DNA of 40,284 nucleotides from a virus: the IMG/VR virus record IMGVR_UViG_3300008117_000309, positions 1 through 40,284 of that record; one strand, written 5' to 3'. Shown here one piece after another: positions 7,425 through 39,345 of the stretch. Below the pieces are notes generated by a model, which saw only the letters and a program-made list of their open reading frames with translations, made no database searches and was not told where the DNA came from. The position numbers and the translations under genes were made by a program. Each line of letters starts with the position of its first letter. The first letter of the stretch is position 1.

Positions 7425-8077
7425 TGGAATTTTCTCCATGCAAGCATAAATGGATTTGGAGCATGATTTTTATTCGTGTTCCTAAAAACGCCAGCACTTC
7501 TATCTATTCTCACCTTGGCGATCTTAATTTGATTAAAAAACATGAAAAAACCTTTCATGATGTTTTCTTTAAAAGAAACCCATATAATCAACGAGTCTCG
7601 ACTACGCACGTTAAACCAAACGAAATTTATCAAATTTTTGGTTCAATGGTTCACAATTACATGTCTTTTTCTGTAGTTAGAAATCCATTTGATCGTACAG
7701 TTTCCTTATTTCAGTATGCCAAAGAAAAAAAACTAGGCAATCTTTATCAAAGATCAAATGACGCATCTTTCGAAGATTTTTGCGAAATTATGAGTGAAAA
7801 TTACGCAAATAATACAAAAGATTTTATTGCTACTCATCAACAAGTTGAGTGGTTCGAAGGCGCATTTCAGCCTAATTTTATTCTTCGTTTCGAAAATATT
7901 AAAAATGATTTTAAAGAAATGCTTGATCTTTGCGAAATCAAACACATTAATCCAGATATTCCGCACGAAAACGCAAGCAAAAGATCAGATTATAAAGACT
8001 ATTACAATTCCAATACAAAAAAGATAGTTGAAAAAATCTTTGAAAAAGACATTGACACATTCAAATATACCTATTAA
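7421..8077 (+). CDS. Sulfotransferase family protein
   Basis: The 218-residue protein has both PAPS-binding elements of the sulfotransferase fold. The 5'-phosphosulfate loop is near the N-terminus (FIRVPKNASTSI, residues 18-28). The 3'-phosphate site is at about residues 84-97 (SVVRNPFDRTVSLF, with Arg87 and Ser95). Members transfer sulfate from PAPS to sugars or proteins. The acceptor is unknown; the glycosyltransferase-like gene at 8337 suggests a carbohydrate on the virion or host surface. The ATG at 7421 overlaps the upstream stop, and a GGAAG six to ten bases earlier could be a weak ribosome site. A TTG start at 7409 is possible but less likely. Confidence 0.85.
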   Translation: MMEFSPCKHKWIWSMIFIRVPKNASTSIYSHLGDLNLIKKHEKTFHDVFFKRNPYNQRVSTTHVKPNEIYQIFGSMVHNYMSFSVVRNPFDRTVSLFQYAKEKKLGNLYQRSNDASFEDFCEIMSENYANNTKDFIATHQQVEWFEGAFQPNFILRFENIKNDFKEMLDLCEIKHINPDIPHENASKRSDYKDYYNSNTKKIVEKIFEKDIDTFKYTY

Positions 8078-8080
8078 GGT
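8052..8080 (+). promoter_or_regulatory. Class 1 promoter for 8086
   Basis: TTGACA, 17 bp, TAAGGT, then 5 bases to the ATG. The -10 contains the upstream stop codon TAA. Weaker -10 than most. Confidence 0.55.
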
Positions 8081-8085
8081 AAGAC

Positions 8086-8340
8086 ATGACTGGTAAAATT
8101 AAAATCATTGGCGCAAACAATCAAGCCCATCTTGATTGGATGGAAAAAGAATTTGAGAACTGCACGATTGAACACGCTGGCGGAAACGCAGCAGTTCACA
8201 GTGTTAAAGTTCCAGATCGAGGCGAGTTTCCTTTTGAGCTTTACAAAACTATTGTTATTCAAGACCGCATCATCTTTGAGGGCTATGCTCATTTTGAAGA
8301 TAATCTTGGCCGTTTAGCAATCGAATTCTTTCCTCAATGA
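8086..8340 (+). CDS. Hypothetical protein
   Basis: An 84-residue acidic protein with no recognised domain (MTGKIKIIGANNQAHLDWME at the start, FEGYAHFEDNLGRLAIEFFP at the end); it looks like a small alpha/beta fold. Promoter-like TTGACA and TAAGGT boxes lie directly upstream, with the -10 ending 5 bases before the ATG. It overlaps the next gene by 4 bp (ATGA). Confidence 0.75.
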   Translation: MTGKIKIIGANNQAHLDWMEKEFENCTIEHAGGNAAVHSVKVPDRGEFPFELYKTIVIQDRIIFEGYAHFEDNLGRLAIEFFPQ

Positions 8341-9260
8341 AATATTTAATTATTGATTCTCACAAAGGTTCGCTGAAAGAACCTCAAAATCTTCACTGGC
8401 TAAATGCCAAAAAGATCAAAGACTTTTTGATTCAAAGCGGCCATGAGGCTGACCTCATCTGGAGCTATCCAACAGTCAACGACAACATTAAAGGTGGCTA
8501 TGACCGAATCATTTTTAATCATGCAAGTCACTATTCTTACGTTGACTACGCTTGGCTAAAAGCTAGTCCAGAAGCAAAAATCTTTTACATCACAAACGAA
8601 TACAACCTTGGCGAACCAAGAGCTTTGTGGATGGGAGTGAAAGAAGGTCGTCGCTACGAAGTTATTGCCAATCATGGTGGCAGCATTTCTAAAATCGTAG
8701 AAAAATATTTGAACGGTTGGCACTTTGTTAATTTGAACTGTCTAGTTTTTGACCCCAAAGAAACAACGGCCCCAAAAGAAGGATGCATTTATTATGGTTC
8801 TTTTCGCAAGAATCGCGAAGTCTCATTCCGTAAATATTTAAAAGGCAAAGTAACTGTTTCAACACACCAAAAAAACCGTGAAAAATTTAACGCAATTGAG
8901 GTCAACGGCCCATTCATTGATCGAATCAACTGGTCAAAAGAAGGACTCTCTGCTTTCTACTCTAGTCTCTACATTGAGGACGAGATTAACCATGTCAACT
9001 ATAATTGTTTGGCTAACCGATTCTATGAAGCTCTCAATTATAGCGTTCTTACTCTATTCGATTATGAGTGTAAAAACACCATTGCCATGTCTGGTTATGA
9101 CGTACCTCCTTATTGCATTATTGGTAATGAGCAAGAACTCGCACTAAAAACTCAATTTCAAATGCCAGAAATTCGCGACTATTGTTTGCGAGTCTGGAAA
9201 GAAAAAGCAGCAGAAGAGGTAAAAGAAACCTTGACAAAAATCCTTCTCATTGTAGAATAG
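8337..9260 (+). CDS. GT-B-like glycosyltransferase (CgeB/YkvP-like)
   Basis: This 307-residue protein begins with a Rossmann-like unit (MKYLIIDSHKGS) and has, in the last third, NCLANRFYEALNYSVLTLFD (about residues 221-240). That is the pattern of the glycosyl-transferase 1 domain of CgeB/YkvP-type proteins (usually RxFEALxxGxxxL), in which the Glu contacts the nucleotide sugar. The glycine normally found after EAL is missing. The first half (KIFYITNEYNLGEPRALWMG) resembles the N-terminal domain of GT-B enzymes. With the neighbouring sulfotransferase it could build a sulfated glycan. The -10 box of the next promoter overlaps its stop codon. Confidence 0.7.
   Translation: MKYLIIDSHKGSLKEPQNLHWLNAKKIKDFLIQSGHEADLIWSYPTVNDNIKGGYDRIIFNHASHYSYVDYAWLKASPEAKIFYITNEYNLGEPRALWMGVKEGRRYEVIANHGGSISKIVEKYLNGWHFVNLNCLVFDPKETTAPKEGCIYYGSFRKNREVSFRKYLKGKVTVSTHQKNREKFNAIEVNGPFIDRINWSKEGLSAFYSSLYIEDEINHVNYNCLANRFYEALNYSVLTLFDYECKNTIAMSGYDVPPYCIIGNEQELALKTQFQMPEIRDYCLRVWKEKAAEEVKETLTKILLIVE
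9231..9258 (+). promoter_or_regulatory. Class 1 promoter for 9306
   Basis: TTGACA, 16 bp, TAGAAT, inside the end of the glycosyltransferase-like gene. It is an exception in leaving a leader of about 40 bases before the ATG. Confidence 0.75.
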
Positions 9261-9305
9261 TTAACAACAACACAACCACAAACAAATAAAAAATAAATAA
9301 AACCT

Positions 9306-9557
9306 ATGAGCAACACCATTGCCAAGGCAATTGAAAAAAGCGGACCCGAACAGATTGACCTCTGTTGGGCAATCCTCAAGTATAAGGAAATCGGCGTTCT
9401 TCGCAAAGTCAAAGCCCTTTGTTCGGCATTTGGTTTGGACTTGGAACAAGTAGTGTCCGAGCTTCCAAAAGAAGAAAATGGTCGCATCATTGATTGGGAA
9501 ACCCGTCACATGATTCACGACTCCCTTATCAAGATGACCAAAATCAACAAGCAATAA
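9306..9557 (+). CDS. Hypothetical protein
   Basis: An 83-residue, apparently helical protein (AIEKSGPEQIDLCWAILKYK) with no recognised domain. It is the first gene after the promoter at 9231 and is unusual here in having a real leader of about 40 bases. That leader is very A-rich and has no Shine-Dalgarno sequence. The gene ends one base before the next ATG. Confidence 0.75.
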   Translation: MSNTIAKAIEKSGPEQIDLCWAILKYKEIGVLRKVKALCSAFGLDLEQVVSELPKEENGRIIDWETRHMIHDSLIKMTKINKQ

Positions 9558-9558
9558 C

Positions 9559-10222: not shown

Positions 10223-10228
10223 AGACTA

Positions 10229-10816
10229 ATGAGCGAACTACAAGAGCGTCAACTCTCCGATTGGAATAACAGCCAAAGCTGGAATGCATTTTTTGAACAA
10301 TTTAATGAGTATTTAAAAACATTGGCCCACTCATACAAACTTCCATCACAAGATGTGGATGATGTTGTTCAAGAGGTTTTCATTTCAATGGCGAATTACT
10401 TTCGCGAAAATAAGTTCGACTCGTCAAAGGGAAACATTTATTCTTGGGTCACAACATTTGCCAAGTGGAGAATGGTTGACATTATTCGCCGCAATCAACG
10501 TCAGCACAAGCATGTTACAACTGGCGACGATCTTCTCATGGAAATGCAGCCAGACGAGAATCAAGACCTTGATGCAAAACTTGAGAATAATTATCAGCAA
10601 AAACTCTTTGTTCAAGCTTTGAAAAATCTTGGCAAAGTTCACAAGAGCAAAGACTATATGATCTTTTGCGATATGCATTTTAACCAACTAAATAATGATC
10701 AGTTGATGAAGAAATACAAAGTGAACTGTGGCACAGTTTACATTGCTAAACACCGCATGATCAAAAAAATCAAAGAGGAAGTCAGCAGAATCCTCTGCGA
10801 AGAGCCAAACTACTAA
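10229..10816 (+). CDS. ECF-like RNA polymerase sigma factor
   Basis: A 195-residue protein with sigma-70 region 2 and region 4 only, as in extracytoplasmic-function sigma factors. Region 2 includes QDVDDVVQEVFISMANYF and the DNA-melting segment NIYSWVTTFAKWRMVDIIRR (about residues 70-90). After an acidic linker (MEMQPDENQDLDAKLE), region 4 carries a helix-turn-helix (LNNDQLMKKYKVNCGTVYIA, about residues 152-171). It would redirect host RNA polymerase to phage promoters. A second promoter class in this window, with AAGTG in place of a -35 box, is a candidate target; that link is my inference. It overlaps the kinase-like gene by one base. Confidence 0.85.
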   Translation: MSELQERQLSDWNNSQSWNAFFEQFNEYLKTLAHSYKLPSQDVDDVVQEVFISMANYFRENKFDSSKGNIYSWVTTFAKWRMVDIIRRNQRQHKHVTTGDDLLMEMQPDENQDLDAKLENNYQQKLFVQALKNLGKVHKSKDYMIFCDMHFNQLNNDQLMKKYKVNCGTVYIAKHRMIKKIKEEVSRILCEEPNY

Positions 10817-11247
10817 TGCAGTTTAAAAAAGGTGTTTCAACAGAGAAGGTAGAGTTAGGAAACTGGCGCGGAGAAACTGCTGTTTTTAAATACCTAAAAA
10901 CAAATGGCAAATTCATAAGAGAACTAGATGCTTACAGAATACTGGAGTCTTGCGAGTTTGTGCCAAAATTATTGGCAAGTTCCATAGATGATAGAGTGAT
11001 TGTCACTAAATATGTTGGCCAATCGTTAAATTTAAAATACCTTCCACCAGAGAGAAAAAAGTTTAAAACTCAAATCCAAAATATGAATCATGAATTAGTT
11101 CATGTTTATGGAATTCATCACAATGACATTCGGTGGAAAAATGTGGTAGAGTCTGATGACGGCAAATTGTTTTTAATTGATTTTGAATCTTGGACCTCAA
11201 CAGAAAAAGGCTCCAAAGAGCGCGACCCTGAAAAAATCTTATCTTGA
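10816..11247 (+). CDS. Small RIO/Bud32-like kinase-fold protein
   Basis: At 143 residues this is a minimal protein-kinase-like fold. Visible elements are the beta-3 Lys (AVFKYLK, K25), an alpha-C Glu (RELDAYRILE, E36), a catalytic loop HHNDIRWKNVV (D104, N109) and a DFG-type LIDFE (D122). No clear Gly-rich loop is present. The arrangement resembles Bud32/RIO atypical kinases, so phosphorylation of a host or phage protein is plausible. It follows the sigma factor directly. Its TGA stop lies inside the -35 box of the next promoter. Confidence 0.75.
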   Translation: MQFKKGVSTEKVELGNWRGETAVFKYLKTNGKFIRELDAYRILESCEFVPKLLASSIDDRVIVTKYVGQSLNLKYLPPERKKFKTQIQNMNHELVHVYGIHHNDIRWKNVVESDDGKLFLIDFESWTSTEKGSKERDPEKILS

Positions 11248-11271
11248 CAAAAGACAAGCATGGGTTACTGT
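11244..11271 (+). promoter_or_regulatory. Class 1 promoter for UVDE
   Basis: TTGACA, 16 bp, TACTGT, then 5 bases to the ATG at 11277. The -35 contains the TGA stop of the kinase-like gene. It also decides the start of UVDE. Confidence 0.72.
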
Positions 11272-11276
11272 TTACT

Positions 11277-12188
11277 ATGAACCTATCCCTTTGCTGCATC
11301 TCAAAAACATTGTCTGATAACGGGCAGAGCTTTCGCTCTATGACTTATACGCAGTTTGCCAAGCTGCCATTCAACGCTGCTATCAGCGAGCTTTCCGAGC
11401 GCATCTTGCACAATTTCAAGATGACGCTCAATACTATTCGCTTCTGTCAGCTTAACAACATTCAAGGCTATCGCTTGTCCTCTTCTCTTGCTCCAGTATT
11501 GACGCACAAGAACGTCAATCTGCGCATTGCAGACCTGCCCAACATCGCTGCTATCCGTAGTGTTTGTGACTCTATCAAGCAACTTTTGGCGCAGCATCCT
11601 CTTCGCTTGTCTGCTCATCCTAGCGAATACATCACACTATCGTCTGACAATCCAGAATGCATCAATAACAGCATCCTTGACCTACAGCAACATGCAGAAG
11701 TGTTTGACTTGCTTGGTCTTCCTCAAGACTATCGTTCGCCGCTCAACATACATGTTAGACAGGATGGCGACCCTCAAACCATTGCAGACAAGGTATTGCG
11801 CGTTTACGATCAACTGCCAGACAATATTCGTCAACGCCTTGTGCTTGAGAACAATGACAATGCCAAAGGTGTTTGGGGCATCAAGAATCTTGTCAAGTAT
11901 TTCTACGGTTCTCGCAACATCCCCATCACTTACGACTCTTTGCATCACAGCATCTTGCATGACAATCTAGCAGCAGAGGAAGCATTCAATCTTGCTTACG
12001 AAACTTGGCCAACTACTCCACTGTTTCACTACAGCGAAGGCATTGATGGCACTCGTAAACATGCTGACATGCCAGTTTCAGTTCCCAACAACTATGGCCG
12101 TGATGTTTATTTTGATGTGGAACTCAAACACAAATGCCAAGCTATTTTCCGCATTCGTGAGTTGACAAAGCAAGCAATCTCCGCATAA
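11277..12188 (+). CDS. uvsE: UV damage endonuclease UvsE/UVDE family
   Basis: This TIM-barrel nuclease family nicks DNA 5' to UV photoproducts and other lesions. Typical segments are visible: an N-terminal NLSLCCIS followed by RSMTYTQFAKL, HNFKMTLNTIRFCQLNNIQGYRLSS, the metal-site strands LRLSAHPSEYITLSS and NIHV, VLENND, and PITYDSLHHSIL. The 303-residue length is normal. The frame can be extended to a TTG at 11244, but that codon is part of a TTGACA box, so I chose the ATG at 11277. Its codon choice (more TCT/CGC, higher GC) looks slightly different from neighbouring genes, which could reflect recent acquisition. Confidence 0.9.
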   Translation: MNLSLCCISKTLSDNGQSFRSMTYTQFAKLPFNAAISELSERILHNFKMTLNTIRFCQLNNIQGYRLSSSLAPVLTHKNVNLRIADLPNIAAIRSVCDSIKQLLAQHPLRLSAHPSEYITLSSDNPECINNSILDLQQHAEVFDLLGLPQDYRSPLNIHVRQDGDPQTIADKVLRVYDQLPDNIRQRLVLENNDNAKGVWGIKNLVKYFYGSRNIPITYDSLHHSILHDNLAAEEAFNLAYETWPTTPLFHYSEGIDGTRKHADMPVSVPNNYGRDVYFDVELKHKCQAIFRIRELTKQAISA

Positions 12189-12189
12189 T
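12162..12189 (+). promoter_or_regulatory. Class 1 promoter for 12196
   Basis: TTGACA, 16 bp, CATAAT, then 6 bases to the ATG. The -10 contains the UVDE stop codon. Confidence 0.75.
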
Positions 12190-12920: not shown

Positions 12921-13590
12921 TAAAGTTGAACTCATTGGATTCTATGGTAGCGACGAGATTCATGCATGTTCTGCTTGGACATCCACTAGCCGCGACATCA
13001 CGGAAGAAAAGCGCGAACGTATTCCCAAGCTTTTGAAGATGCTTGCAGAACAGGGACATCACACTCCTTTTGAAAAAAGCAGCCTGCATTTTCTTGTGGA
13101 TTGCGACATTGCTTCTCACATCCACCTACTCAAGCACCGTATTGGCGTTTCGATCAATGGAGAAAGTGCTAGGTACAAAGAACTGAAAGAAGATAAGTTT
13201 TATATTCCTGATGATTGGGCTGCATTAGATGGTCATAGTGGTGAGGAATGGGACTGTCCTTGGACAAATTTTTCTGTTGATAGTTGGGCAGAAACACTTC
13301 AAAAGTTTACCGAAGAAGGTAATGCATTATACCATCAGTGCCTCAAAGAGCTTGAACCCGTTCTTGGTCGCAAACGCGCAAAAGAATCTGCTCGCTTCTT
13401 CAAGACTTACAATTCGCAAATTCAAGCTGATGTGATGTTCAATTGGCGCAGCTTCCATCATTTCTTAGAGCTTCGCAACAAACCAGAGGCGCAGAAAGAA
13501 ATTCGCGATATTGCAGAATATATGCTTCTTCTTGTAAAATATATTGAAGGCAACCCCTTCAAATACGCACTTGACGCTTTTGGATATTAG
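12913..13590 (+). CDS. thyX: Flavin-dependent thymidylate synthase ThyX
   Basis: ThyX makes dTMP from dUMP with FAD, NADPH and methylene-tetrahydrofolate, supplying thymidylate for phage DNA synthesis. The signature (usually RHRxxSxNxxSxRY) is seen as KHRIGVSINGESARY at residues 74-88, with Lys in place of the first Arg. The FAD/folate segment GHHTPFEKSSLHF is at residues 49-61. The length of 225 residues and the C-terminal region around FNWRSFHHFLELRN (nucleotide-binding helix) are normal for the family. The promoter of the next gene (phosphatase) is embedded in its last codons. Confidence 0.95.
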   Translation: MTNKVELIGFYGSDEIHACSAWTSTSRDITEEKRERIPKLLKMLAEQGHHTPFEKSSLHFLVDCDIASHIHLLKHRIGVSINGESARYKELKEDKFYIPDDWAALDGHSGEEWDCPWTNFSVDSWAETLQKFTEEGNALYHQCLKELEPVLGRKRAKESARFFKTYNSQIQADVMFNWRSFHHFLELRNKPEAQKEIRDIAEYMLLLVKYIEGNPFKYALDAFGY

Positions 13591-13598
13591 TCTATATT
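13571..13598 (+). promoter_or_regulatory. Class 1 promoter for phosphatase
   Basis: TTGACG, 16 bp, TATATT, then 5 bases to the ATG at 13604. It lies across the end of thyX and decides the phosphatase start. Confidence 0.72.
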
Positions 13599-19882: not shown

Positions 19883-20377
19883 ATGATTCCAATCAAAGAC
19901 AAAAAATACATGATCAATTTCAAAGGCCATTGGGGGTCTTATGTTGGTGAAGGCGTATGCACGGGTGATGTTAATGGCTTTTGCGGTGAAAACGGCGATA
20001 CTTTTACCTATGGATTTAAAATTCCCCTTGATGAAGAAACTTGTTTCTTTCTTGAAACAGACATTGTTGCGGAAATTGCTGACGATAATCAAGTCAGACC
20101 ACTAATTTGTGACCCTGACAATTATCCAGAAGATTCTGACTACTGCAAAACTTGCGGCAGTTGTGGTGAAACTGGCTGCTGCTCTCCAATCAACTGCCAA
20201 GCAGTCAAATGCAAATACGGCGAAATCAATTTAAAAGACTATGAATGCACTCTCAACCAATGGGAGATTATGCGTAAGGCTTTAGGAGAACTTGCAGATT
20301 TTGATGATAATAAAGTTGCAATAAACGCATTAAATGCAGTTGACAAAGAATGGGACAAACTCTATAGTAAAGAATGA
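19883..20377 (+). CDS. Cys-rich hypothetical protein
   Basis: A 164-residue protein. A cysteine-rich segment at about residues 88-115 (YCKTCGSCGETGCCSPINCQ ... C) has eight or more Cys and could bind zinc or an iron-sulfur cluster, or be disulfide-bonded. The N-terminal half looks beta-rich with Gly/aromatic residues. Overlaps the macrodomain gene by 4 bp. Confidence 0.72.
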   Translation: MIPIKDKKYMINFKGHWGSYVGEGVCTGDVNGFCGENGDTFTYGFKIPLDEETCFFLETDIVAEIADDNQVRPLICDPDNYPEDSDYCKTCGSCGETGCCSPINCQAVKCKYGEINLKDYECTLNQWEIMRKALGELADFDDNKVAINALNAVDKEWDKLYSKE

Positions 20378-21387: not shown

Positions 21388-21646
21388 AACACAAAAAACT
21401 GCAATTAAAAACGCTATTAAAAAACTTCAAATTGCCTCCATGCTTCTTGAAGATCAAAAAGACATTGTGGCAAATCATAGCCTTTCAGCAGCTATCTTGT
21501 CTGGCGCAGAAGCTTTTGACTGTCTCGTTAATGGATTTCCAGATATTGTTGAAGAGATTCAAACTCCCCTGATTGATAACCAAAATCAACTCAAGTTCAA
21601 CTTTATGGTTGACAACTCTCAAACCACTGATACAGTAAACCCATGA
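21380..21646 (+). CDS. Hypothetical protein
   Basis: An 88-residue protein, helical in its first half (MNKTQKTAIKNAIKKLQIAS). The promoter of the next gene lies within its last 13 codons, and its stop overlaps the next start (ATGA). Unrecognised. Confidence 0.68.
   Translation: MNKTQKTAIKNAIKKLQIASMLLEDQKDIVANHSLSAAILSGAEAFDCLVNGFPDIVEEIQTPLIDNQNQLKFNFMVDNSQTTDTVNP
21609..21636 (+). promoter_or_regulatory. Class 1 promoter for 21643
   Basis: TTGACA, 16 bp, TACAGT, then 6 bases to the ATG, wholly inside the preceding gene. Confidence 0.68.
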
Positions 21647-23500: not shown

Positions 23501-23528
23501 TTGACAAGCTGCTTTTTGAGCCTATACT
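23501..23528 (+). promoter_or_regulatory. Class 1 promoter for rIIA
   Basis: TTGACA, 16 bp, TATACT, then 8 bases to the ATG at 23537. Intergenic and near-consensus. Confidence 0.85.
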
Positions 23529-25483: not shown

Positions 25484-25511
25484 TTGACAAACCCTAAAAC
25501 CAAACTATAAT
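25484..25511 (+). promoter_or_regulatory. Class 1 promoter for rIIB
   Basis: TTGACA, 16 bp, TATAAT (both perfect), then 9 bases to the ATG at 25521. Confidence 0.9.
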
Positions 25512-26551: not shown

Positions 26552-28300
26552 TTATATTGAAACTCCCGTAAACCTAAAACCATCGTCAAACGGTTTGATA
26601 AACAAGCCTGTGGGCTGATTTAAAACGCTAATTTTACGATTAAATTCTCGGATAACGTGGTCGCGATAGTCTGACCTGTTGGTTCCAGAATTTGCCACAA
26701 ACAAACCTGTCACATTGGTTCGGTAAGTTTGCCACGTTCCAGAACCAGTCGCATAGCTTGAGTGAATGTCTGCTCGTAAAATGTTTGGATTGGTATATGC
26801 TGGTGGAGACGGCGGCGGCGTTGGTGGCGAAGGTGGAGGCGTTGGTGGTGGTGTTGGCGGAGGCGTTGGTGGACTTGGACAAGAACTTGCGCCTCCAACA
26901 CCATCAGTATATGAATATGTAAAACTAGCAAAAATAAAATATCCATTATACAGTGTGGAGATGCAAGAAGAGGCATACGCTGTCTGACCAACATTAAACG
27001 TATTGCTATTAGTATAAATTGTAGTAGAAACACTGTCGCAATCAATTCCAACATGAGCGTAGTATTGTGTAGAGACACCGCTGCTATACTTGTAAATGCC
27101 ACCGCCACTGGAGATGGCTCCATTAAAAGTTGTGGTTAGGCATGGGTTACTATAGGCCGTATCACTGGCACTAAACGGAGTAGCATTAGTATAAATCGTA
27201 ATAGAACCACCACTGCAATTTGTTACAGAGTGGGAATAAGAAGTTACGGGAGTTCCAGTGCCACTGCTGTATGAATAAACCGCTCCACTAAGAATAAAAT
27301 ATCCAGTGTAAGCTGTTGTTTGGCACAAATCACTGTAGGCAGTATCGGTATAAGCAAAACTGCTAGAGTTTGTGTAAATTGTTACACTGCTTCCGCTGCA
27401 ATCTGTGCCAGCATGAGCATGGGTCGCATTCCCCGCTGTTCCGCTACCCGAAGTGTAAGTATAGATCGTATTATTTTTTACAAAAGTGCCATCAAAAAGA
27501 GACGATATATTGCAGTCTGAATATGCTGTATCAGTATAAGCAAAACTACTAGCGACTGTATAAATTGTTACGCTTCCGCCATTACAATCTGTTCCAACAT
27601 GAGCGTAGTATTGTGTGGCTACGCCATCAACATATTTATAGGTATTTCCGCTGCGAATAAAAATGCCACTAAAAAGCGTTTTAAAACACTGATCGCTGTA
27701 TGCAGTATCGGAAGAACTAAAAGAACTGTATCCCGTGTAAATTGTTGCAGCACCACCGCTGCAATTCGTTCCAGAATAAACATAAGGAATGCCACTGAAA
27801 CTACCAACACCATTGCTATATGCGTAAACGCTTCCACTATGAATAAAGTCTCCAGTATAAGTTGTTGTTAAACATTGATTAGTATAAGCAGTATCGGTAT
27901 ATGCAAAAGAGCTTTGGTTTGTGTAAATCGTTACAGAAGCATTGCTGCAATCTGTTCCAGAATGGGCGTAAGTATTAGTAACAAGCGACCCGTTTCCAGA
28001 GGTATAAGTATAATAAGCATTATTATAAACAAAAGCTCCAGTATAGGGTTGGGCTGGATTAGCGGTGTCTGAATAAGCAGTATCACTAACACTAAAGGAA
28101 TTATTAAGTGTGTAAATTGTAACAGGCGTTCCGCTGCAATCTGTTCCAGTGTAAGGATAATAGGTTGGTGGAGGCGTTGGCGGAGGCGGCGGCGTAGGAG
28201 GCGGTGGTGGAGTAGGCGGCGGCGGAGGCGTTGGCGGCGGCGGAGGCGTTGGCGGCGGAGTGGGCGGCGGCGTTGGCGTAGGCGATGGCGTTGGAGGCAT
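26552..28300 (-). CDS. Seven-repeat Cys/Tyr surface or fibre protein with Pro-rich linkers
   Basis: A 582-residue protein. The first 45 residues are almost pure Pro/Thr (PPPPPTPPPPP). Then come seven repeats of about 60 residues, each with HxGTDCSGxxVTIYT, SFxxxDTAYSD, a second Cys and a YxYxxGxG end. A second Pro-rich linker precedes a C-terminal domain of about 80 residues (ILRADIHSSYATGSGTWQTY ... FDDGFRFTG). Two Cys per unit suggest one disulfide each, hence extracellular exposure. A single-unit paralogue starts at 223. A virion decoration or receptor-binding fibre is the most likely role; no known family is certain. Confidence 0.8.
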   Translation of the reverse strand: MPPTPSPTPTPPPTPPPTPPPPPTPPPPPTPPPPPTPPPPPTPPPTYYPYTGTDCSGTPVTIYTLNNSFSVSDTAYSDTANPAQPYTGAFVYNNAYYTYTSGNGSLVTNTYAHSGTDCSNASVTIYTNQSSFAYTDTAYTNQCLTTTYTGDFIHSGSVYAYSNGVGSFSGIPYVYSGTNCSGGAATIYTGYSSFSSSDTAYSDQCFKTLFSGIFIRSGNTYKYVDGVATQYYAHVGTDCNGGSVTIYTVASSFAYTDTAYSDCNISSLFDGTFVKNNTIYTYTSGSGTAGNATHAHAGTDCSGSSVTIYTNSSSFAYTDTAYSDLCQTTAYTGYFILSGAVYSYSSGTGTPVTSYSHSVTNCSGGSITIYTNATPFSASDTAYSNPCLTTTFNGAISSGGGIYKYSSGVSTQYYAHVGIDCDSVSTTIYTNSNTFNVGQTAYASSCISTLYNGYFIFASFTYSYTDGVGGASSCPSPPTPPPTPPPTPPPSPPTPPPSPPAYTNPNILRADIHSSYATGSGTWQTYRTNVTGLFVANSGTNRSDYRDHVIREFNRKISVLNQPTGLFIKPFDDGFRFTGVSI

Positions 28301-28375: not shown

Positions 28376-30145
28376 ATGAAAAAAATAGTTTTAATCTTAT
28401 TTTGTCTGTTGGCATCAACCTTTGGCGCAGACTTGAATCTCGCCTCTTTCAAGATTGACAACGTGCTAGAAAAGCAGTGTTTAAATGCCAAAATCAAACC
28501 TCTTGCACCAGTTAGCGAAGACGTTTTCTTGCGCAGAGCATATTTGACCATCATTGGCCGCAATCCCACGTTTAGCGAATACAATGCTTATTTCTCTGCT
28601 TCTGCCGAAAATAAAAAAACAGAACTAATTAAATATCTATTAAAACATCCTGGCCACATTTCGCACATGTTTAATTTTTGGGCAGACGCTCTTAGAATGC
28701 GCGAAAGACTCTCGCCAATCAATAATTTTAATGGTGGACCATACATTGACTATGTGAAAGACTGCATTGCAGCAAACAAACCATATCATTTATTCGTTAA
28801 AGATTTGCTCCTAAGCTCTGGCAATTACTATTCCAACCCTGCTACTGGTTACTACTACAGAGACGTTGGAATGCCTCTTGACAACTTGATTGCCACAAAC
28901 AAAGTATTTCTAGGCACAGACATTGGCTGCGCACAGTGTCACGATGACCCCTTCCAAGACTTCACACAAATGCAGTTCTACAAAATGGCTGCAATGTTTA
29001 ATCAAATTGAGCTTCGCCCCAAAGAATCAAAAGAAACACGCGAAAAGATCAAAGCCTTGAGAGAAACCATTGACGCTCTCATTAAAAGCGACCCTGTTAA
29101 GAATCGCGGCTTAAACAATCAAATTAATAACTTTGTTCGCGCTACTCAAGCTGATCTTGAAATCCTCTCCACAAAAGAACTCAAGCTTCCTCATGATTAT
29201 CAATACAAGGATGCAAAGCCAAACGACTCTGTTGTTCCAAGCACTCTTGACGGCAAAGGAGAAATCAAAAACAAAGAAGATTTGCGGCAAGACGCTGTGG
29301 CTTGGCTCGCCAATCCCAACCATCCCACATTCACAAAGAACATTGTGAATCGCTACTGGAACTTGGTGTTTGGCAAGTATATCATTTCAGAATACGACAA
29401 CATTCACGACTCTGACGCTTTGAACAGTGAACTCATGAACACTTTGGCGAACATTTTTGTTGAACTAAACTATGATAGCCAAAAGTTTCTTTTTGTGCTT
29501 TGCAACACGAAACTCTTTCAGCGTCAAACATACAGTGGAGCTTTCGCCAACAGCGAAAACTTTATTTTCATTGGTCCAGTGAAGCGCAGACTCACCGCAG
29601 AACAGCTTTGGGATTCTGTTGTGGCTCTTTGCGTGGAGAGTCCAGAACAATATAAAACAGAATTTCACACTGAATACGCAAAAAACATGCAAACAACCAT
29701 TGAGGATATTTCGTTAGAGAAGATGAGAATGAAGCTCGAAAAGTATAATCAAATTATGCGCGACAAATACTCTCTCGCGCCAAAGATTGCAAATGTTGTT
29801 GTTGCAAGAGCTTCTGAAATCAATGATGCCAATCAAACAAACACTATTCTTGCTCAACTTGGCCGCAGTGATCGTGAACTCATTCAAACATCTTCCTTGG
29901 AAGGTTCTGTGACGCAAGTAATCTCATTCATGAATGGTCAGCTTGCAAACATTGCCACAAACAAAGAAACATCTCTCATCAAGTCCTTGGCAGGCAAGTC
30001 TCCATCCGAAAAGATGGAAATCATTTACAAAAGCATTTTGAGCCGCAAACCCACACTATCAGAGAAGGCCGCATTCTCTGGCGCAAATGACGATGATGTT
30101 ATTTGGGCATTGCTCAATTCAACCGAATTTAAATTCTCTAATTAA
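28376..30145 (+). CDS. DUF1549/DUF1553 protein (PSCyt2-PSD1 type), exported
   Basis: A 589-residue protein with an N-terminal signal peptide (MKKIVLILFCLLASTFGADL). The first domain matches DUF1549: EDVFLRRAYLTIIGRNPT (about residues 48-65) and the c-type-haem-like TDIGCAQCHDDPF (C185, C188, H189). The C-terminal domain matches DUF1553: WLANPNHPTFTKNIVNRYWN and RRLTAEQLWDSVVALC. The families are hallmarks of Planctomycetota and Verrucomicrobiota; their function is unknown. The leading cytochrome domain common in host versions is absent. A DUF1501 gene follows, as it does in hosts. Confidence 0.9.
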   Translation: MKKIVLILFCLLASTFGADLNLASFKIDNVLEKQCLNAKIKPLAPVSEDVFLRRAYLTIIGRNPTFSEYNAYFSASAENKKTELIKYLLKHPGHISHMFNFWADALRMRERLSPINNFNGGPYIDYVKDCIAANKPYHLFVKDLLLSSGNYYSNPATGYYYRDVGMPLDNLIATNKVFLGTDIGCAQCHDDPFQDFTQMQFYKMAAMFNQIELRPKESKETREKIKALRETIDALIKSDPVKNRGLNNQINNFVRATQADLEILSTKELKLPHDYQYKDAKPNDSVVPSTLDGKGEIKNKEDLRQDAVAWLANPNHPTFTKNIVNRYWNLVFGKYIISEYDNIHDSDALNSELMNTLANIFVELNYDSQKFLFVLCNTKLFQRQTYSGAFANSENFIFIGPVKRRLTAEQLWDSVVALCVESPEQYKTEFHTEYAKNMQTTIEDISLEKMRMKLEKYNQIMRDKYSLAPKIANVVVARASEINDANQTNTILAQLGRSDRELIQTSSLEGSVTQVISFMNGQLANIATNKETSLIKSLAGKSPSEKMEIIYKSILSRKPTLSEKAAFSGANDDDVIWALLNSTEFKFSN

Positions 30146-30149
30146 TCTT

Positions 30150-31385
30150 ATGAACTCTATCAATCGTCGCGACTTCGTTCTTCGTCTAGCCAGTGCAGGC
30201 TTGGGCGTTTCTGTGCTACCAGAAATTCACGCTGCACAGTCTGCCAACAAAGCAGAACACATTATTTACTTGTTTATGAATGGTGGCATGAGCCATCTTG
30301 ATACTTTTGACCCCAAGAAAGACGCAGAAGTAAAAGGCAAATTCAATTCCATCAACACAAACGCTGATTATGCTATCAGCGAACACTTGCCAAAACTCGC
30401 CAAACACGGCGACAAGATGGCAGTGATTCGCAGCATGATGGTCAATACTGGCGCACATGAGCAAGCTCAGTATCTTCAACGCACAAGCTACAAAAAGATC
30501 GGCACAATCATTCACCCAAACATGGGCGCATGGATGTGTAAGATGCAAGACAAGGGAGAAAAAATCAGCATCCCTCAAAATGTTTTGATTAGTGGTCCAG
30601 CAGACCATCCTGGCGCTGGTTGGATGGCAAAGAAATATTCTCCTATTCCAATTCAAGACCCTCTTCGCGGCTTGGAGAACGCAAAGATTAGAAACAAAGA
30701 AGAATTCAGCAAACGCATTGAAGTTCTCAAGCAAATTGAACGCGATGCAATGAAGGGCGCAAATCCTTCTGAAAAGAGCTACACAGAATTCTACGATCAA
30801 ACTGTTCGTTTGCTCAACTCATCCGAGCTTGATATTTTTGACCTCACAAAAGAGTCCGCAGACAAGAGAGAAAAATATGGCAACAATCGTTTTGGCCAAG
30901 GTGTTTGCCTTGCCAAGAGACTTATTGAGCAAGGTGGATGCAAATTTATTGAAGTGTCAGATGGTGGTTGGGACACTCACGTTAACAACTTTGATGCACT
31001 AGAAGATAAATTAGCAATTCTTGACACAGCTTTAACTGCTCTCATTGAAGACTTGCAAGCTTCTGGCTTGTTAAAGAAAACTCTCATTGTTGTGACTACT
31101 GACTTTGGACGCACGCCAATCATCAACGTGAACGATGGGCGCGATCATCATCCTGGCGCATTCTCTAGTGCTCTCATTGGTGCTGGCATCAAAGGCGGTC
31201 AAGTTTATGGCAAGAGCGATGACAAAGGCATGAAAGTTTTGGATGGCATTGTTTCTCCGCAAGATTTCAATGCTACCATTGCTGCTGCTGCTGGATTACA
31301 AACTGAACAAGTGTTAATTTCTCCAGAAGGGCGACCATTCAAAATCGCTGATAAAGGCAAGCCAATTCCATCACTGTTGGCGTAA
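30150..31385 (+). CDS. DUF1501 protein with Tat signal
   Basis: A 411-residue protein. I chose the ATG at 30150, which gives a twin-arginine signal (NRRDFVLRLASAGLGVSVLP). The domain belongs to the alkaline phosphatase/sulfatase-like DUF1501 family: MNGGMSHLDTFDPK near the N-terminus, EVSDGGWDTHVNN and TTDFGRTPIINVNDGRDHHP, which hold likely metal ligands (Asp, His). In Planctomycetota and Verrucomicrobiota DUF1501 genes follow DUF1549/DUF1553 genes, as here, and the products are exported. The substrate is unknown. The pair in a phage is striking. A terminator follows. Confidence 0.92.
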   Translation: MNSINRRDFVLRLASAGLGVSVLPEIHAAQSANKAEHIIYLFMNGGMSHLDTFDPKKDAEVKGKFNSINTNADYAISEHLPKLAKHGDKMAVIRSMMVNTGAHEQAQYLQRTSYKKIGTIIHPNMGAWMCKMQDKGEKISIPQNVLISGPADHPGAGWMAKKYSPIPIQDPLRGLENAKIRNKEEFSKRIEVLKQIERDAMKGANPSEKSYTEFYDQTVRLLNSSELDIFDLTKESADKREKYGNNRFGQGVCLAKRLIEQGGCKFIEVSDGGWDTHVNNFDALEDKLAILDTALTALIEDLQASGLLKKTLIVVTTDFGRTPIINVNDGRDHHPGAFSSALIGAGIKGGQVYGKSDDKGMKVLDGIVSPQDFNATIAAAAGLQTEQVLISPEGRPFKIADKGKPIPSLLA

Positions 31386-31833: not shown

Positions 31834-31844
31834 ATTATACACTT
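31834..31844 (-). promoter_or_regulatory. Class 2 promoter (AAGTG) for Dps-like gene
   Basis: On the minus strand AAGTG is followed by TATAAT, then 6 bases to the ATG at 31827. It overlaps by two bases the -35 of the divergent promoter. Confidence 0.6.
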
Positions 31845-31870
31845 GACAAGCTCATTTTTCATATTATAAT
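31843..31870 (+). promoter_or_regulatory. Class 1 promoter for 31880
   Basis: TTGACA, 16 bp, TATAAT (both perfect), then 9 bases to the ATG. The structured RNA may be read from here. Confidence 0.88.
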
Positions 31871-32488: not shown

Positions 32489-33241
32489 ATGTCTTTTAGC
32501 AACACTGGAAAAGTTTGGACCGTGAGCGGTTTCGCTCAATATTTAAATGGAATTAAAGCTCCAACTTGGGCTAAATCTGTTTGCCTCCATCATACAGCCG
32601 CGCCTTCCCTGAATCAAAGGCCAGATGGTTTCCTAGCAAAACACTTGGAAAACCTCAAAGACTACTATTCCAATCAATTAGGTTGGCGCAGCGCACCACA
32701 TTTATTCATTGATGACGATCAAGTTTGGGGCATGACTCCATTAACTGAAACTGGCGTTCATGCTTCTAGCTTTAATCGCACCGCTTTGGGCATTGAAGTG
32801 CTTGGAGACTACGACAACGAAGACCCCAAGAAAGGTAGAGGTTTCGAGTGCTGGAAAACAGCAGCAGCCGCAACAAAAATGCTGTTAGATTGGCTCAAAC
32901 TGCCAGTGAATGATAAAACTGTATTGTTTCATCGTGACGACCCACGCACAACCAAAACATGCCCTGGCACAAAGGTTCAGAAGCCTTGGGTGATTGACTT
33001 GATCAAAGATTTTAAATACACAAACAGTCCTCCGCCAACACTAGCACCAAGTTTTGCGCCTCTTGCGCCGATTCTAAAACTCAAAGGATATTCGGACGAA
33101 GACATTAAAAAAGGTTTAAAATCAGTCAGCGGCAAAATCTTTTGGCGCGAAAAATGGCTCGAAACAGCCTACTATGACAAAACCGCAGGAGCTACAATGA
33201 TTTCGCTTGCAGAGCTTGATTCAATTCAAAAAAGTTGTTGA
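32489..33241 (+). CDS. N-acetylmuramoyl-L-alanine amidase, endolysin
   Basis: A 250-residue protein with an amidase_2/PGRP-type zinc domain: VCLHHTAAPS (His34/His35), ETGVHASSFNRTALGIEV (His91), LFHRDD (His148) and TKTCPG (Cys158), the usual HHC zinc site. It cleaves the amide bond between MurNAc and the first L-Ala of peptidoglycan to release progeny. A Pro/Ala-rich linker follows (PPPTLAPSFAPLAP), then a short C-terminal segment (KLKGYSDEDIKKGLKSVSGK ...) that may bind cell wall. No signal peptide is visible, so a holin is expected. The TGA stop lies inside the next -35 box. Confidence 0.93.
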   Translation: MSFSNTGKVWTVSGFAQYLNGIKAPTWAKSVCLHHTAAPSLNQRPDGFLAKHLENLKDYYSNQLGWRSAPHLFIDDDQVWGMTPLTETGVHASSFNRTALGIEVLGDYDNEDPKKGRGFECWKTAAAATKMLLDWLKLPVNDKTVLFHRDDPRTTKTCPGTKVQKPWVIDLIKDFKYTNSPPPTLAPSFAPLAPILKLKGYSDEDIKKGLKSVSGKIFWREKWLETAYYDKTAGATMISLAELDSIQKSC

Positions 33242-33265
33242 CAAGTTAGATTTTCGTTCTATAGT
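33238..33265 (+). promoter_or_regulatory. Class 1 promoter for 33271
   Basis: TTGACA, 16 bp, TATAGT, then 5 bases to the ATG. The -35 contains the endolysin TGA stop. Confidence 0.82.
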
Positions 33266-33270: not shown

Positions 33271-33579
33271 ATGAACGAATCAAAAACTCAATCCAGCATC
33301 TTAATCACCATGATTGGCACCGCATTTGTTACACTTTTTATTTGGTGTTTTTGGAACGAAAGCCCCATCAATCAAATGAACAAAGTGCAGATTGTGCAGC
33401 CCATCAACGTAAAAGATGTTGAGAAATGGGTGCATTCTCTCGCAGAGTCATCGTTCAAAAGCAACTTGCTCACAGTGTTGGGCGCAGAATATGGTGGTGA
33501 CAGCGAAGAGCTAAACAAGCTCATGAAAGCATTTATTGAGGTAAAAATGCAGGAACTTTCCAAGCAAAAAACCATTTGA
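33271..33579 (+). CDS. Single-span membrane protein after endolysin
   Basis: A 102-residue protein with one N-terminal membrane helix (ILITMIGTAFVTLFIWCFW, residues 10-28) and a soluble, partly helical part of about 70 residues. The position directly after the endolysin suggests a lysis role such as holin accessory or inner-membrane spanin, but no lipoprotein partner follows and no family is recognised. Its promoter -10 ends 5 bases before the ATG, and its own TGA stop is inside the next -35 box. Confidence 0.7.
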   Translation: MNESKTQSSILITMIGTAFVTLFIWCFWNESPINQMNKVQIVQPINVKDVEKWVHSLAESSFKSNLLTVLGAEYGGDSEELNKLMKAFIEVKMQELSKQKTI

Positions 33580-33603
33580 CAAGCAAAGAAATCTCTCTAC
33601 AGT
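33576..33603 (+). promoter_or_regulatory. Class 1 promoter for 33615
   Basis: TTGACA, 16 bp, TACAGT, then 11 bases to the ATG. The -35 contains the preceding gene's TGA stop. Confidence 0.75.
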
Positions 33604-35577: not shown

Positions 35578-35605
35578 AAAAACTCCTTTCAAAAGATAAT
35601 ACACT

Positions 35606-35854
35606 ATGAAGAACAAATTCCAATGCCGTTCGTGCGATAAAATTATATTTAATTTCCCAGCGGAAAAACTAGTCGCTCCCCATCCTTTTATTGAGGGAGC
35701 GGAAATCTTTGGCTGTCCTCACTGCCAGCAATGCGAAGAAGGATTCACGGCTCTTTGCGACAGCGACGACTGCATCAATCCCGTTAGTGGAGGCACGCCC
35801 ACTCCAGAAGGCTATAAATTTCTTTGCTACAAACATTTGTCAAAATACCTTTGA
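35606..35854 (+). CDS. Small zinc-ribbon-like protein
   Basis: An 82-residue protein with three cysteine pairs: CRSC at residues 7-10, CPHCQQC near 38-44, and later Cys in LCDSDDC and FLCYKHL. The pattern CxxC ... CxxC fits one zinc ribbon. Such small proteins are common in phages and may bind nucleic acid or protein. The TGA stop lies inside the -35 box of the tRNA promoter. Confidence 0.72.
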   Translation: MKNKFQCRSCDKIIFNFPAEKLVAPHPFIEGAEIFGCPHCQQCEEGFTALCDSDDCINPVSGGTPTPEGYKFLCYKHLSKYL

Positions 35855-35878
35855 CAAACACTAAAGCCAAGGCATAAT
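35851..35878 (+). promoter_or_regulatory. Class 1 promoter for tRNA-Leu
   Basis: TTGACA, 16 bp, CATAAT, about 57 bases before the tRNA. The -35 contains the TGA stop of the zinc-ribbon gene. Confidence 0.8.
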
Positions 35879-36019: not shown

Positions 36020-36035
36020 CTATTTTCAACATTAT

Positions 36036-36046: not shown

Positions 36047-36051
36047 AATTC

Positions 36052-36525: not shown

Positions 36526-36526
36526 C

Positions 36527-36778: not shown

Positions 36779-36782
36779 AATT

Positions 36783-37355
36783 ATGAAAACATTGCTTACG
36801 TTATTTTTTTTACTGACAGCAAGCGTCACAACAGCTTATGCTGATATTTTGCTCGGAGCGCCTGGCATAAGTATTGGCTCACGAATCGCTACTAAGGTTC
36901 CATTTCAAATTGATTACACATTATCAAATTCATATAGATTTATTTTTTATGGTATTCAAGCTAAAGGCGATACGCTAGGTGCTCAAGGTTATTCTGGCAT
37001 AACTGGTAATGGTGGTCAATTTCACTTAAAAGCCTCCGTTTCAAGTAGTGCAAAAGAATTTGAAAAAGCTGGATTGCTTGAGTTTCGCAATATTCAAGAT
37101 TTTAATCTATCTCCGATACAAACACTATTAATTTATCCTGCCGCTGTTTTTCAATCAAGCGATCATCCGATTGAAATTGTTTTGAAATGGAGTGGAGAGG
37201 GAAACGCGCATAAACCAAATGGAGTTTTTAATATTTTAGGAGAGTATCAAAAAGACCCGCCAATTCCAACTGGTTCAATTATTTTTAATCTTGGCAATTT
37301 AGCAATTGAAGGTGAAAGCAACCCAGAAGCCTCTATAAAAGTCATCCGAGATTAA
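36783..37355 (+). CDS. Secreted protein
   Basis: A 190-residue protein with a clear signal peptide (MKTLLTLFFLLTASVTTAYA, cleavage after Ala20). The mature part is Ser/Gly-rich and beta-rich with no recognised domain. It is adjacent to a second secreted protein and the two are probably co-expressed. Surface display, periplasmic function or superinfection exclusion are possible roles; none is shown. Confidence 0.78.
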   Translation: MKTLLTLFFLLTASVTTAYADILLGAPGISIGSRIATKVPFQIDYTLSNSYRFIFYGIQAKGDTLGAQGYSGITGNGGQFHLKASVSSSAKEFEKAGLLEFRNIQDFNLSPIQTLLIYPAAVFQSSDHPIEIVLKWSGEGNAHKPNGVFNILGEYQKDPPIPTGSIIFNLGNLAIEGESNPEASIKVIRD

Positions 37356-37356
37356 A

Positions 37357-38403
37357 ATGAAAATATTATTTTTTTGCTTGCTCACTGTATCATTGCTCGC
37401 ACAAAACACGGAATCTTGGGTGCGTCAAACCGATTTATCCACTGGACAAATTTACGACACATTTATTGATGAAAAAAGCGGCAAATACATAACTCCGCTA
37501 AAAATAAACAAAGAAGGGGCAATGTTTGAACTCTTTGCTCGCGGCACAGCATGGGACAATAATATTTATTTGCTTGACACTAAAATAGTTGGAACTTATA
37601 ACCCGCAAGTGGTTGTTGACATTGTTTCGGAAGACCCTTACTTAAAAGGTGAAGCGAATAGCTTAACTTATGTTAAACGCACTCGCGCAGATCGTCCGTT
37701 TGCTGTTAATATACAAGTTCAAGGATTGGCGGGTAATGAATTAACAACAAAATATATATATTTTAATGTTCAAGGTAAAAATTATGATGCAAAAACATAC
37801 TCTTCTCTTAACAGAGAACAATATTTGATTGAAGAAAGCAATCTTACAAACGGAACATATAATTTAAATCCATTGTATCATCAGCTTACTTCACCAACAA
37901 TAAGTTCAGGCAATGGAGAACAAACTTTTACATTTGTTCGTTATTCATCCTACAATGTTCCTGATACTGTTCTAGCGCAGCCTAAAATAGAAATTTGGCC
38001 ATTAGCTTCTGCCACTATAAATAACATCACACCTAAACAGGTTTTTATTGATCGCATTCCTTCTATTATTATTGAATTTAATCACTTATATCCCGATTCT
38101 CATACCTTTATCCAGATTTATAAAGGCAATCAAGTTCTTGGAACTAAAGGTAAAATAGTGGACGGAACCGAAATAAAATTTGGTTCTTATTACAACCAAA
38201 CAGACGAAGCTACAAACATACCTCAAAATTTAACATTAACTATTAATGATTTATCAAATTATGCATCAGCAGATGGCTTATACACTCTTGAAGTGATTAC
38301 GCATACGCCATTTTTTAATCGCACAATGGAGCGTTTAAAATATATCACTTTTGAAGTTGATAGAGTAATTAGTTCGAGAGGTAGATTTAGCACGCTGGAA
38401 TAA
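37357..38403 (+). CDS. Secreted beta-rich protein
   Basis: A 348-residue protein with a signal peptide (MKILFFCLLTVSLLA, cleavage near Gln16). The mature part starts with ESWVRQTDLSTGQIYDTFID and appears wholly beta, with two or more possible Ig-like modules (GYP-poor, Asn/Thr-rich; e.g. RIPSIIIEFNHLYPDSHTF at about 227-245). It begins one base after the upstream gene's stop. No family recognised. Likely acts outside the cytoplasm with its neighbour. Confidence 0.78.
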   Translation: MKILFFCLLTVSLLAQNTESWVRQTDLSTGQIYDTFIDEKSGKYITPLKINKEGAMFELFARGTAWDNNIYLLDTKIVGTYNPQVVVDIVSEDPYLKGEANSLTYVKRTRADRPFAVNIQVQGLAGNELTTKYIYFNVQGKNYDAKTYSSLNREQYLIEESNLTNGTYNLNPLYHQLTSPTISSGNGEQTFTFVRYSSYNVPDTVLAQPKIEIWPLASATINNITPKQVFIDRIPSIIIEFNHLYPDSHTFIQIYKGNQVLGTKGKIVDGTEIKFGSYYNQTDEATNIPQNLTLTINDLSNYASADGLYTLEVITHTPFFNRTMERLKYITFEVDRVISSRGRFSTLE

Positions 38404-38419
38404 TATATTGAGAAAAATC

Positions 38420-38447
38420 TTGACAGCGGCCAAGACCTCTCCATAAT
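38420..38447 (+). promoter_or_regulatory. Class 1 promoter for 38454
   Basis: TTGACA, 16 bp, CATAAT, then 6 bases to the ATG. Confidence 0.82.
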
Positions 38448-38453
38448 GAGAGC

Positions 38454-38690
38454 ATGAACAAACAGCCGACCAAAGCTCTCTCTAAACTCAATGAGAACGC
38501 TTCTTTGAGCAGAATCAATGACGCATTTCGCCCCTATGATTCCATGATCAGCTTGCGTTACTTTGGCGAATATGCTGAAAATGCCATCTTTCTTGGCGCA
38601 GAAGCAACCTGTCAGTGGAAAATCGTTCAAGACTCTCAAGGATGCTGGTGTTTAATTCCTAAAACTGTTAAAAAACAAATAGATCAATGA
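38454..38690 (+). CDS. Hypothetical protein
   Basis: A 78-residue protein (MNKQPTKALSKLNENASLSR at the start), unrecognised. A promoter with CATAAT ending 6 bases before the ATG is present at 38420-38447. It overlaps the next gene by 4 bp (ATGA). Confidence 0.7.
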   Translation: MNKQPTKALSKLNENASLSRINDAFRPYDSMISLRYFGEYAENAIFLGAEATCQWKIVQDSQGCWCLIPKTVKKQIDQ

Positions 38691-38872
38691 ACGAAGATAG
38701 TCCTATTATTTTTGCGATGGTAGCAACAATGGCACTGATTTTTGGAGGCGTGCTTAGTTGGTGCATTTGTTCAGACTCTTGGCGGCAAGAACTTGTTGAC
38801 AAAGGTTTTGCAGAGTGGCAAATTGTCGCAGGAACTAAAGAAGTTGAATTTAAATGGAAAGAAAACAAATGA
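38687..38872 (+). CDS. Small membrane protein
   Basis: A 61-residue protein with one membrane helix (IIFAMVATMALIFGGVLSWC, residues 7-26) and a soluble tail. ATGA overlaps on both sides link it to its neighbours. Unrecognised. Confidence 0.66.
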   Translation: MNEDSPIIFAMVATMALIFGGVLSWCICSDSWRQELVDKGFAEWQIVAGTKEVEFKWKENK

Positions 38873-39093
38873 AACAATACTCCCTCTCCCCCAAATACGA
38901 AATCTTTGACCACACTACTGACCCGCCAATAAAAACATTTATTGTTTGCGATGACCCTGATGGTTTAGACTGTGTTTGCTTGCAAAAAAGTGATGGAGAA
39001 ATGGAATTTATTCCTCCAGACATGGCTTTGCTACTGGCAGAAGCAATGATTAAAATGGCTGAACACCTTAAAAATCATGATAAAATCTCTTGA
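38869..39093 (+). CDS. Hypothetical protein
   Basis: A 74-residue protein starting at the ATG in the ATGA overlap at 38869; it is acidic (CDDPDGLDCVCLQKSDGEME) and ends in a helix. Unrecognised. The TGA stop lies inside the next -35 box (TTGACT). Confidence 0.68.
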   Translation: MKQYSLSPKYEIFDHTTDPPIKTFIVCDDPDGLDCVCLQKSDGEMEFIPPDMALLLAEAMIKMAEHLKNHDKIS

Positions 39094-39117
39094 CTAACTT
39101 GAGGCAATCACTATAAT
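39090..39117 (+). promoter_or_regulatory. Class 1 promoter for 39124
   Basis: TTGACT, 16 bp, TATAAT, then 6 bases to the ATG. The -35 contains the preceding gene's TGA stop. Confidence 0.82.
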
Positions 39118-39123
39118 AAAAAC

Positions 39124-39345
39124 ATGAAAGCAACTCTTGAATTTGAACTGCCGCAAGACTCTGGAGAGCATCAAACAGCCCTTGACGGCTGGAAATGGCG
39201 CATGATTGTGAACGAAACGCTCGAAAATCTTCGCCATGATTTAAAATATAATAATGATTTAAACTCTGAAACAGTTAGAAACCTTGAAAGCGTGCGAGCT
39301 TTCATCTTTCAAAGAATGACGGAAGAGAATCTTTGCTTGGAGTAA
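39124..39345 (+). CDS. Hypothetical protein
   Basis: A 73-residue protein (MKATLEFELPQDSGEHQTAL, then DGWKWRMIVNETLENLRHDL). This DGxxW pattern is common in small phage proteins near replication genes, but no function is known. Promoter TTGACT-16-TATAAT with 6 bases to the ATG. Confidence 0.72.
   Translation: MKATLEFELPQDSGEHQTALDGWKWRMIVNETLENLRHDLKYNNDLNSETVRNLESVRAFIFQRMTEENLCLE

Follow-up and report, generated by a model that had tools for sequence, protein, structure and literature searches.

Start codons lie directly behind promoters in the phage genome of IMG/VR virus record IMGVR_UViG_3300008117_000309, whose 40,284 bases are referred to here as the window, and the separately promoted genes of this phage are very probably expressed as leaderless mRNAs, with leaders of 0 to about 4 nucleotides (nt), from two promoter classes and probably by 70S initiation. 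Leaderless expression is known from a few bacterial groups; as judged from sequence, the start-abutting promoters described here are real and conserved across a phage lineage, and leaderless mRNA appears well supported for promoter-proximal genes.

With sigma70-type start selection, transcription is expected to begin such that a -10 box ending 5-9 nt upstream places +1 at or beside the A of the AUG. The host's sigma70-type RNA polymerase would read TTGACA-N16/17-TATAAT-type promoters with exactly this spacing, and the A of the AUG would serve as the natural +1 purine. The element AGTGTAA, whose end is in most cases 8 nt ahead of the ATG, would form a second, probably late class with the same effect. 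Ribosomes, probably as 70S monosomes, would then initiate on the 5'-terminal AUG, as two sources describe for 70S ribosomes on known leaderless mRNAs (PMC12340547; PMC9031893). Operon-internal genes, which lack a Shine-Dalgarno (SD) site and mostly overlap or abut the preceding gene, would probably be translated by coupling or 70S scanning.

Promoter geometry at the start codons of the window

Thirteen genes are preceded by sigma70-type promoters, i.e., a TTGACA-type -35 box and a TATAAT-type -10 box 16-18 nt apart (Table 1). The spacer measures 16 nt in 11 of the 13 and 17 nt in two, and the last -10 base lies 5-11 nt, mostly 5-9 nt, before the ATG. An earlier note on this DNA had listed twelve such genes with a 16-bp spacer in nearly all; all twelve were recovered, at -10-to-ATG distances of 5-11 nt, and the uniform spacer was borne out as well. 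The promoter of gene 20374 and the AGTGTAA element go beyond that note. The weakest of the twelve is the promoter of gene 8086, whose -10 box can be placed in two ways and shares bases with the stop codon of the preceding gene.

Three separate comparisons exclude a chance origin of this spacing. A full promoter was defined as TTGACN-N15..18-TANNNT ending 3-11 nt upstream, and totals come to 57 start ATGs and to 58 or 59 starts depending on the test. When CATAAT was also allowed, 12/57 called start ATGs but only 1/1410 other ATGs of the same DNA carried the pattern (21% vs. 0.07%), and this sole match was start 33615, a real start missed by the gene caller. With TANNNT only, the pattern stood at 11/58 called starts compared to 0.0 in locally shuffled upstream regions. 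Finally, among 33 promoter-like sites on both strands, 10 had the ATG of an open reading frame 4-10 nt downstream, as opposed to about 1.1 per 7 nt farther out. Leaderless-type genes are marked by a -10 box that lies some 6-7 nt ahead of the start codon more often than by chance, and the window shows this mark; the full promoter was absent from the starts of T4 (0/39) and lambda (0/35) and nearly so from those of two bacterial chromosomes (400 kb; 1/325). The internal control behaves as expected: a strong promoter of the same kind precedes a tRNA-Leu gene and has no ATG at leaderless spacing, because its transcript is non-coding.

SD sites (GGAG/GAGG, 5-16 nt upstream) occur at 1/58 starts of the window vs. 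0.7 in shuffles, i.e., at shuffle level, in line with their rarity in the earlier note. The same measure clearly detects them in planctomycete/verrucomicrobial contigs (71/327 vs. 23.5), in Thermus phage P23-45 (45/72 vs. 9.2) and in lambda (15/36 vs. 4.7).

The description of the promoters as genome-wide stands as far as a signal beyond chance is concerned, but not in its reach, since only 13 of the 59 starts have a sigma70-type abutting promoter, plus the weak case 31827 (-). Overall, about 18 of the 59 starts have an abutting promoter, 25 abut or overlap the upstream gene and 16 belong to neither group.

Table 1. Promoter elements and sigma factor genes; distances run from the last base of the element to the ATG.
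Element	Position (strand)	Distance to ATG	Gene or remark
TTGACA 8052-8057, -10-like TAAGGT 8075-8080, spacer 17	8052..8080 (+)	5 nt	ATG 8086
TATTAA, alternative -10	8072-8077 (+)	8 nt	ATG 8086
TTGACA-N16-TACTGT	11244..11271 (+)	5 nt	11277, UvdE/UvsE-like
TTGACA-N16-CATAAT	12162..12189 (+)	6 nt	12196
TTGACG-N16-TATATT	13571..13598 (+)	5 nt	13604, phosphatase-like
TTGACA-N17-TATAGT	20340..20368 (+)	5 nt	20374, absent from the earlier note's list
TTGACA-N16-TACAGT	21609..21636 (+)	6 nt	21643
TTGACA-N16-TATACT	23501..23528 (+)	8 nt	23537, rIIA-like
TTGACA-N16-TATAAT	25484..25511 (+)	9 nt	25521, rIIB-like
TTGACA-N16-TATAAT	31843..31870 (+)	9 nt	31880
TATAAT, weak -35 ATGAAA, spacer 17	31834..31839 (-)	6 nt	ATG 31827 (-); weak case, divergent from 31880 promoter
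TTGACA-N16-TATAGT	33238..33265 (+)	5 nt	33271
TTGACA-N16-TACAGT	33576..33603 (+)	11 nt	33615; predicted leader ~4 nt
TTGACA-N16-CATAAT	38420..38447 (+)	6 nt	38454
TTGACT-N16-TATAAT	39090..39117 (+)	6 nt	39124
TTGACA-N16-CATAAT	35851..35878 (+)		tRNA-Leu (35936); internal control
AGTGTAA	14513..14519 (+)	8 nt	ATG 14528
AGTGTAA	28355..28361 (+)	14 nt	ATG 28376, DUF1549/DUF1553 gene
AGTGTAA	36037..36043 (+)	8 nt	ATG 36052, matrixin-like protease
AGTGTAA	28309..28315 (-)	8 nt	ATG 28300 (-)
AGTGTAA	23455..23461 (-)	8 nt	ATG 23446 (-)
ECF-type sigma factor, phage-encoded	10229..10816 (+)		
Divergent ~230-aa sigma-like protein	L303 478-1164 (G363)		in addition to ECF-type sigma; G363 near-identical to the window phage

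Lambda-type tail proteins are encoded at 228-6396 (-). The window further codes for ThyX, an amidase and two tRNAs, along with the rIIA-like and rIIB-like proteins, the UvdE-like endonuclease and the ECF-type sigma factor of Table 1, and contains a DUF1549/DUF1553 plus DUF1501 pair. A long repetitive protein with Gly/Pro-rich segments (26552-28300 (-)) could have a tail-associated or adhesion role.

Conservation in related phages and further promoter classes

The earlier note had proposed a scan of the phage and related contigs against shuffled controls, and in two sets of relatives found with rIIB or tail protein L the full promoter stood at 25/306 and 28/275 genes, compared to 0.4 and 0.2 after shuffling. 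Counted over 23 whole records of related viruses, the motif matched 148 times and the reversed pattern 15 times (rows added by hand), and a pattern scan across all viral contigs gave at least 120 matches, a number that is no estimate of prevalence. Promoter and spacing were kept in 7/9 rIIA homologues of 33-41% amino-acid identity and in 7/11 rIIB homologues of 51-64% identity, and these homologues (33-64% identical) align from residues 1-4. Likewise, the promoter of the UvdE/UvsE-like gene 11277 was kept in 8/10 relatives below 90% identity, and the full motif of gene 8086 in 9/9 such relatives, where it overlaps, however, the end of the upstream coding sequence. ThyX, the glycosyltransferase and the ECF sigma gene lack such a promoter in the window, and it was found upstream of none of their homologues.

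Summed over related loci, TATAAT occurs 96 times at a distance of exactly 6 nt vs. 0-25 times at other distances from 0 to 29 nt, and in one 184-kb phage 17/22 start-proximal TATAAT sites have this distance. In other relatives, the 6-mer that dominates near starts is TAAATA, 5 nt away, or TATAAT, exactly 6 nt away. SD 6-mers are missing from the highest-ranked start-proximal 6-mers of the phages, whereas in the two planctomycete/verrucomicrobial chromosomes G301 and G140 AAGGAG ranks first. In the large DUF1501 phages G378 (L289-L290) and G379 (L287-L288), the leaderless promoters share a conserved part of the spacer like AGGAAACNCNCTATAAT before N6-ATG.

A ranking of 6-mers by their enrichment 3-12 nt before starts revealed GTGTAA in the window's phage, with 9/34 occurrences start-proximal and six at exactly 8 nt (expected 0.2). 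The extended element AGTGTAA lies 4-12 nt before a called start in 8 of 19 occurrences, compared to 0.22 on average for 210 permutations of its letters, of which it is the best; its closest competitors are overlapping registers of the same element. It also precedes further genes in G362, a near-identical 91.6-kb relative and the source of DNA outside the window, and the total for GTGTAA over related loci has its peak, 60 cases, at 8 nt vs. at most 17 at other distances. AGTGTAA is probably a promoter class, probably active late in infection, and may be read by a phage-encoded divergent sigma factor. The better candidate for this role is a sigma-like protein of about 230 aa, given that four of the AGTGTAA phage records (G363, G368, G371, G376) encode it. 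The ECF sigma of the window, which matches a Rhodopirellula/Verrucomicrobium model weakly and below the cut-off, was considered as reader too and fits less well, and both assignments are putative.

A further class emerged in relatives of the phage, seven of which encode a small sigma factor, some 150-160 aa long. These proteins match one another, and all three that were tested match the gp55 family phrog_234. In T4, whose late promoters are read by the gp55 sigma, the late box precedes the transcription start by about one helical turn (PMC2988020). The related phages share both features, a gp55-type sigma and TATAAATA in the same genomes, as found for gp55-type late promoters, but differ in spacing: TATAAATA stands mostly 24-28 nt before the start codon in T4 and peaks at 5-6 nt in the relatives (39 cases summed over related loci; 16/28 cases in L055-L077, the loci of the gp55-type sigma group). 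At gene starts of the window TATAAATA does not occur; its phage carries AGTGTAA instead, and the relative G363 a different sigma. As read from these sequences, the geometry is common to two or three promoter types that are unrelated, one of them a T4-type late promoter that makes a leader in T4.

Probable leaderless mRNAs and alternative explanations

Nothing argues more strongly for leaderless mRNA, as opposed to mere compaction, than this convergence of different elements on the spacing that would be expected if transcription began at the AUG. Under compaction, a dense genome would place promoters near ATGs while the true starts lie farther downstream, behind leaders. Compaction would fit the tight gene packing, with 25/59 starts abutting or overlapping the preceding gene, yet we consider it very unlikely as the sole cause: the distances peak sharply, at 5-6 nt for TATAAT and at exactly 8 nt for GTGTAA, rather than spreading broadly, T4 is likewise compact and keeps TATAAATA far from its starts, the rII homologues align from their very first residues, and no SD motif is enriched anywhere. 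Hardly credible is the notion that AT-rich sequence was selected near starts for unstructured mRNA and merely mimics -10 boxes. Although the upstream regions are AT-rich (GC 0.34) and unstructured starts aid SD-less initiation generally, this would leave the TTGACA box at N16, GTGTAA at exactly 8 nt and the contrast between start and other ATGs unexplained, and paired boxes came to 0.0 in shuffled AT-rich upstream regions.

A more serious contender, which we still regard as unlikely, accepts the promoters as real and holds that translation proceeds mostly from longer read-through transcripts with these genes as internal cistrons, the leaderless RNA being minor. Many promoters do lie inside or at the end of same-strand upstream genes (8086, 11277, 12196, 13604, 20374, 21643). 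However, internal cistrons are without SD as well, and rIIA (23537) and 31880 are preceded by divergent genes, i.e., have no adjoining same-strand upstream cistron. Moreover, the spacing is selected in the rIIA homologues, which argues that the leaderless RNA matters.

Several observations speak against leaderless expression as a complete account. Most window genes have no abutting promoter, the start calls come from a simple gene caller, and the promoters of 33615 and, if TATTAA is its -10 box, of 8086 predict short leaders instead of none. The relatives are not independent of one another, nor is conservation at 8086, 12196 and 13604 independent evidence, because these promoters overlap the end of the upstream gene, and TTGAC-type cases are few (2/348) in the more distant DUF1501 phages. 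The earlier idea that leaderless translation is the normal mode of the phage is therefore best confined to promoter-proximal genes, where geometry, lack of SD sites and retention in diverged relatives favor it, and finds no support as the mode of all genes.

Possible extension of the leaderless mode to the host, and significance

Leaderless expression as the ordinary mode of the host as well, an extension rather than an alternative, is possible but doubtful. Phages usually match the initiation mode of their host, and in 195 verrucomicrobial genomes TTGACA-N16-TANNNT-N5..7-ATG occurs 481 times vs. 295 for the N25..27 version, a modest phylum-wide enrichment; some of these genomes barely use AAGGAG, and the pattern is present in many planctomycete genomes, too. 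On the other hand, G301 and G140 (200 kb sampled each) showed strong SD and no -10 peak at starts, and small samples of the SD-poor verrucomicrobia G012, G116, G195, G168 and G056 and of the planctomycetes G312, G275, G239, G340 and G009 gave no convincing -10 peak, apart from a few cases in the latter. A search of the window DNA against 388 verrucomicrobial genomes, with few candidates scored and insensitive to CRISPR spacers, returned one weak match in a tRNA-Tyr region. The proposal of the earlier note that the host perhaps shares this mode did not find support.

Two side observations concern the verrucomicrobial genomes themselves. In some (e.g., G012, G195, G168, G056), AAGGAG-N5..8-ATG is no commoner than a reversed control, and SD use appears very low; in others (e.g., G158, G032, G027), many leaderless-spaced promoters lie within inverted repeats such as TTGACATATCATNNNNATGATATGTT, which suggests autoregulated genes.

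A hint to the host comes from the DUF1549/DUF1553 plus DUF1501 pair (28376-31385), typical of planctomycetes and verrucomicrobia and here found in a phage. DUF1501 occurs in 25 viral loci, some on contigs of up to 225 kb, and a scan of genome contigs found homologues only in planctomycetes/verrucomicrobia, at about 48% identity or less. In the DUF1501 tree, 22 phage copies form their own clade apart from the bacterial ones and one distant copy falls among planctomycetes. The gene would thus point to a planctomycete or verrucomicrobial host, but phages may carry foreign genes.

Thermus phage P23-45 has leaderless middle and late genes and, as the window phage would, uses leaderless transcripts for some gene classes; it differs in that SD (AGGAGG) is its top start-proximal motif in a 50-kb control, a motif absent here. 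In D. radiodurans, a -10 motif lies 6-7 nt before a third of genes (PMC12340547), and a 2011 survey found leaderless genes in several phyla, planctomycetes and verrucomicrobia not being listed (PMC3160421). Deinococcus-Thermus (PMC12340547) and Actinobacteria (PMC3160421) share with the window phage a -10 box 6-7 nt before the start, acting as promoter and not as ribosome site, and, as predicted for the phage, the lack of a 5' UTR. There, however, the box is a bare TANNNT and SD genes coexist, whereas the window phage keeps a strong TTGACA box with a 16-nt spacer, is essentially devoid of SD and is part of a phage lineage that has further, phage-specific promoter classes. Lambda, in which leaderless initiation was first found (PMC3160421), likewise makes a leaderless phage mRNA from a sigma70-type promoter, but as an isolated case among genes using SD, in contrast to the many genes concerned here. 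Among the open-licence papers searched, none was found on a phage lineage whose early and late promoters abut start codons.

Evenly poised is the broader view that nearly all promoter classes (host sigma70, gp55-type late and the new AGTGTAA class) sit at the start codon across a broad environmental phage set, so that one position marks the start of both transcription and translation and SD sites are given up for the whole infection. The probable reason would be a host, perhaps planctomycete or verrucomicrobial, that starts translation efficiently on leaderless mRNA. Leaderless translation is usually regarded as a host trait (Actinobacteria, Deinococcus-Thermus, archaea) or as an isolated phage oddity; here, the same start-abutting promoters, without SD, are shared by phage lineages whose late sigma factors differ. 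Since TATAAATA lies about 20 nt nearer to the ATG than in T4, these phages lend themselves naturally to a comparison of late expression with and without a leader. The sequence rule TTGACN-N16-TANNNT-N5..7-ATG, GTGTAA-N8-ATG or TATAAATA-N5/6-ATG could furthermore aid in correcting gene starts and in finding hosts with the same initiation mode.

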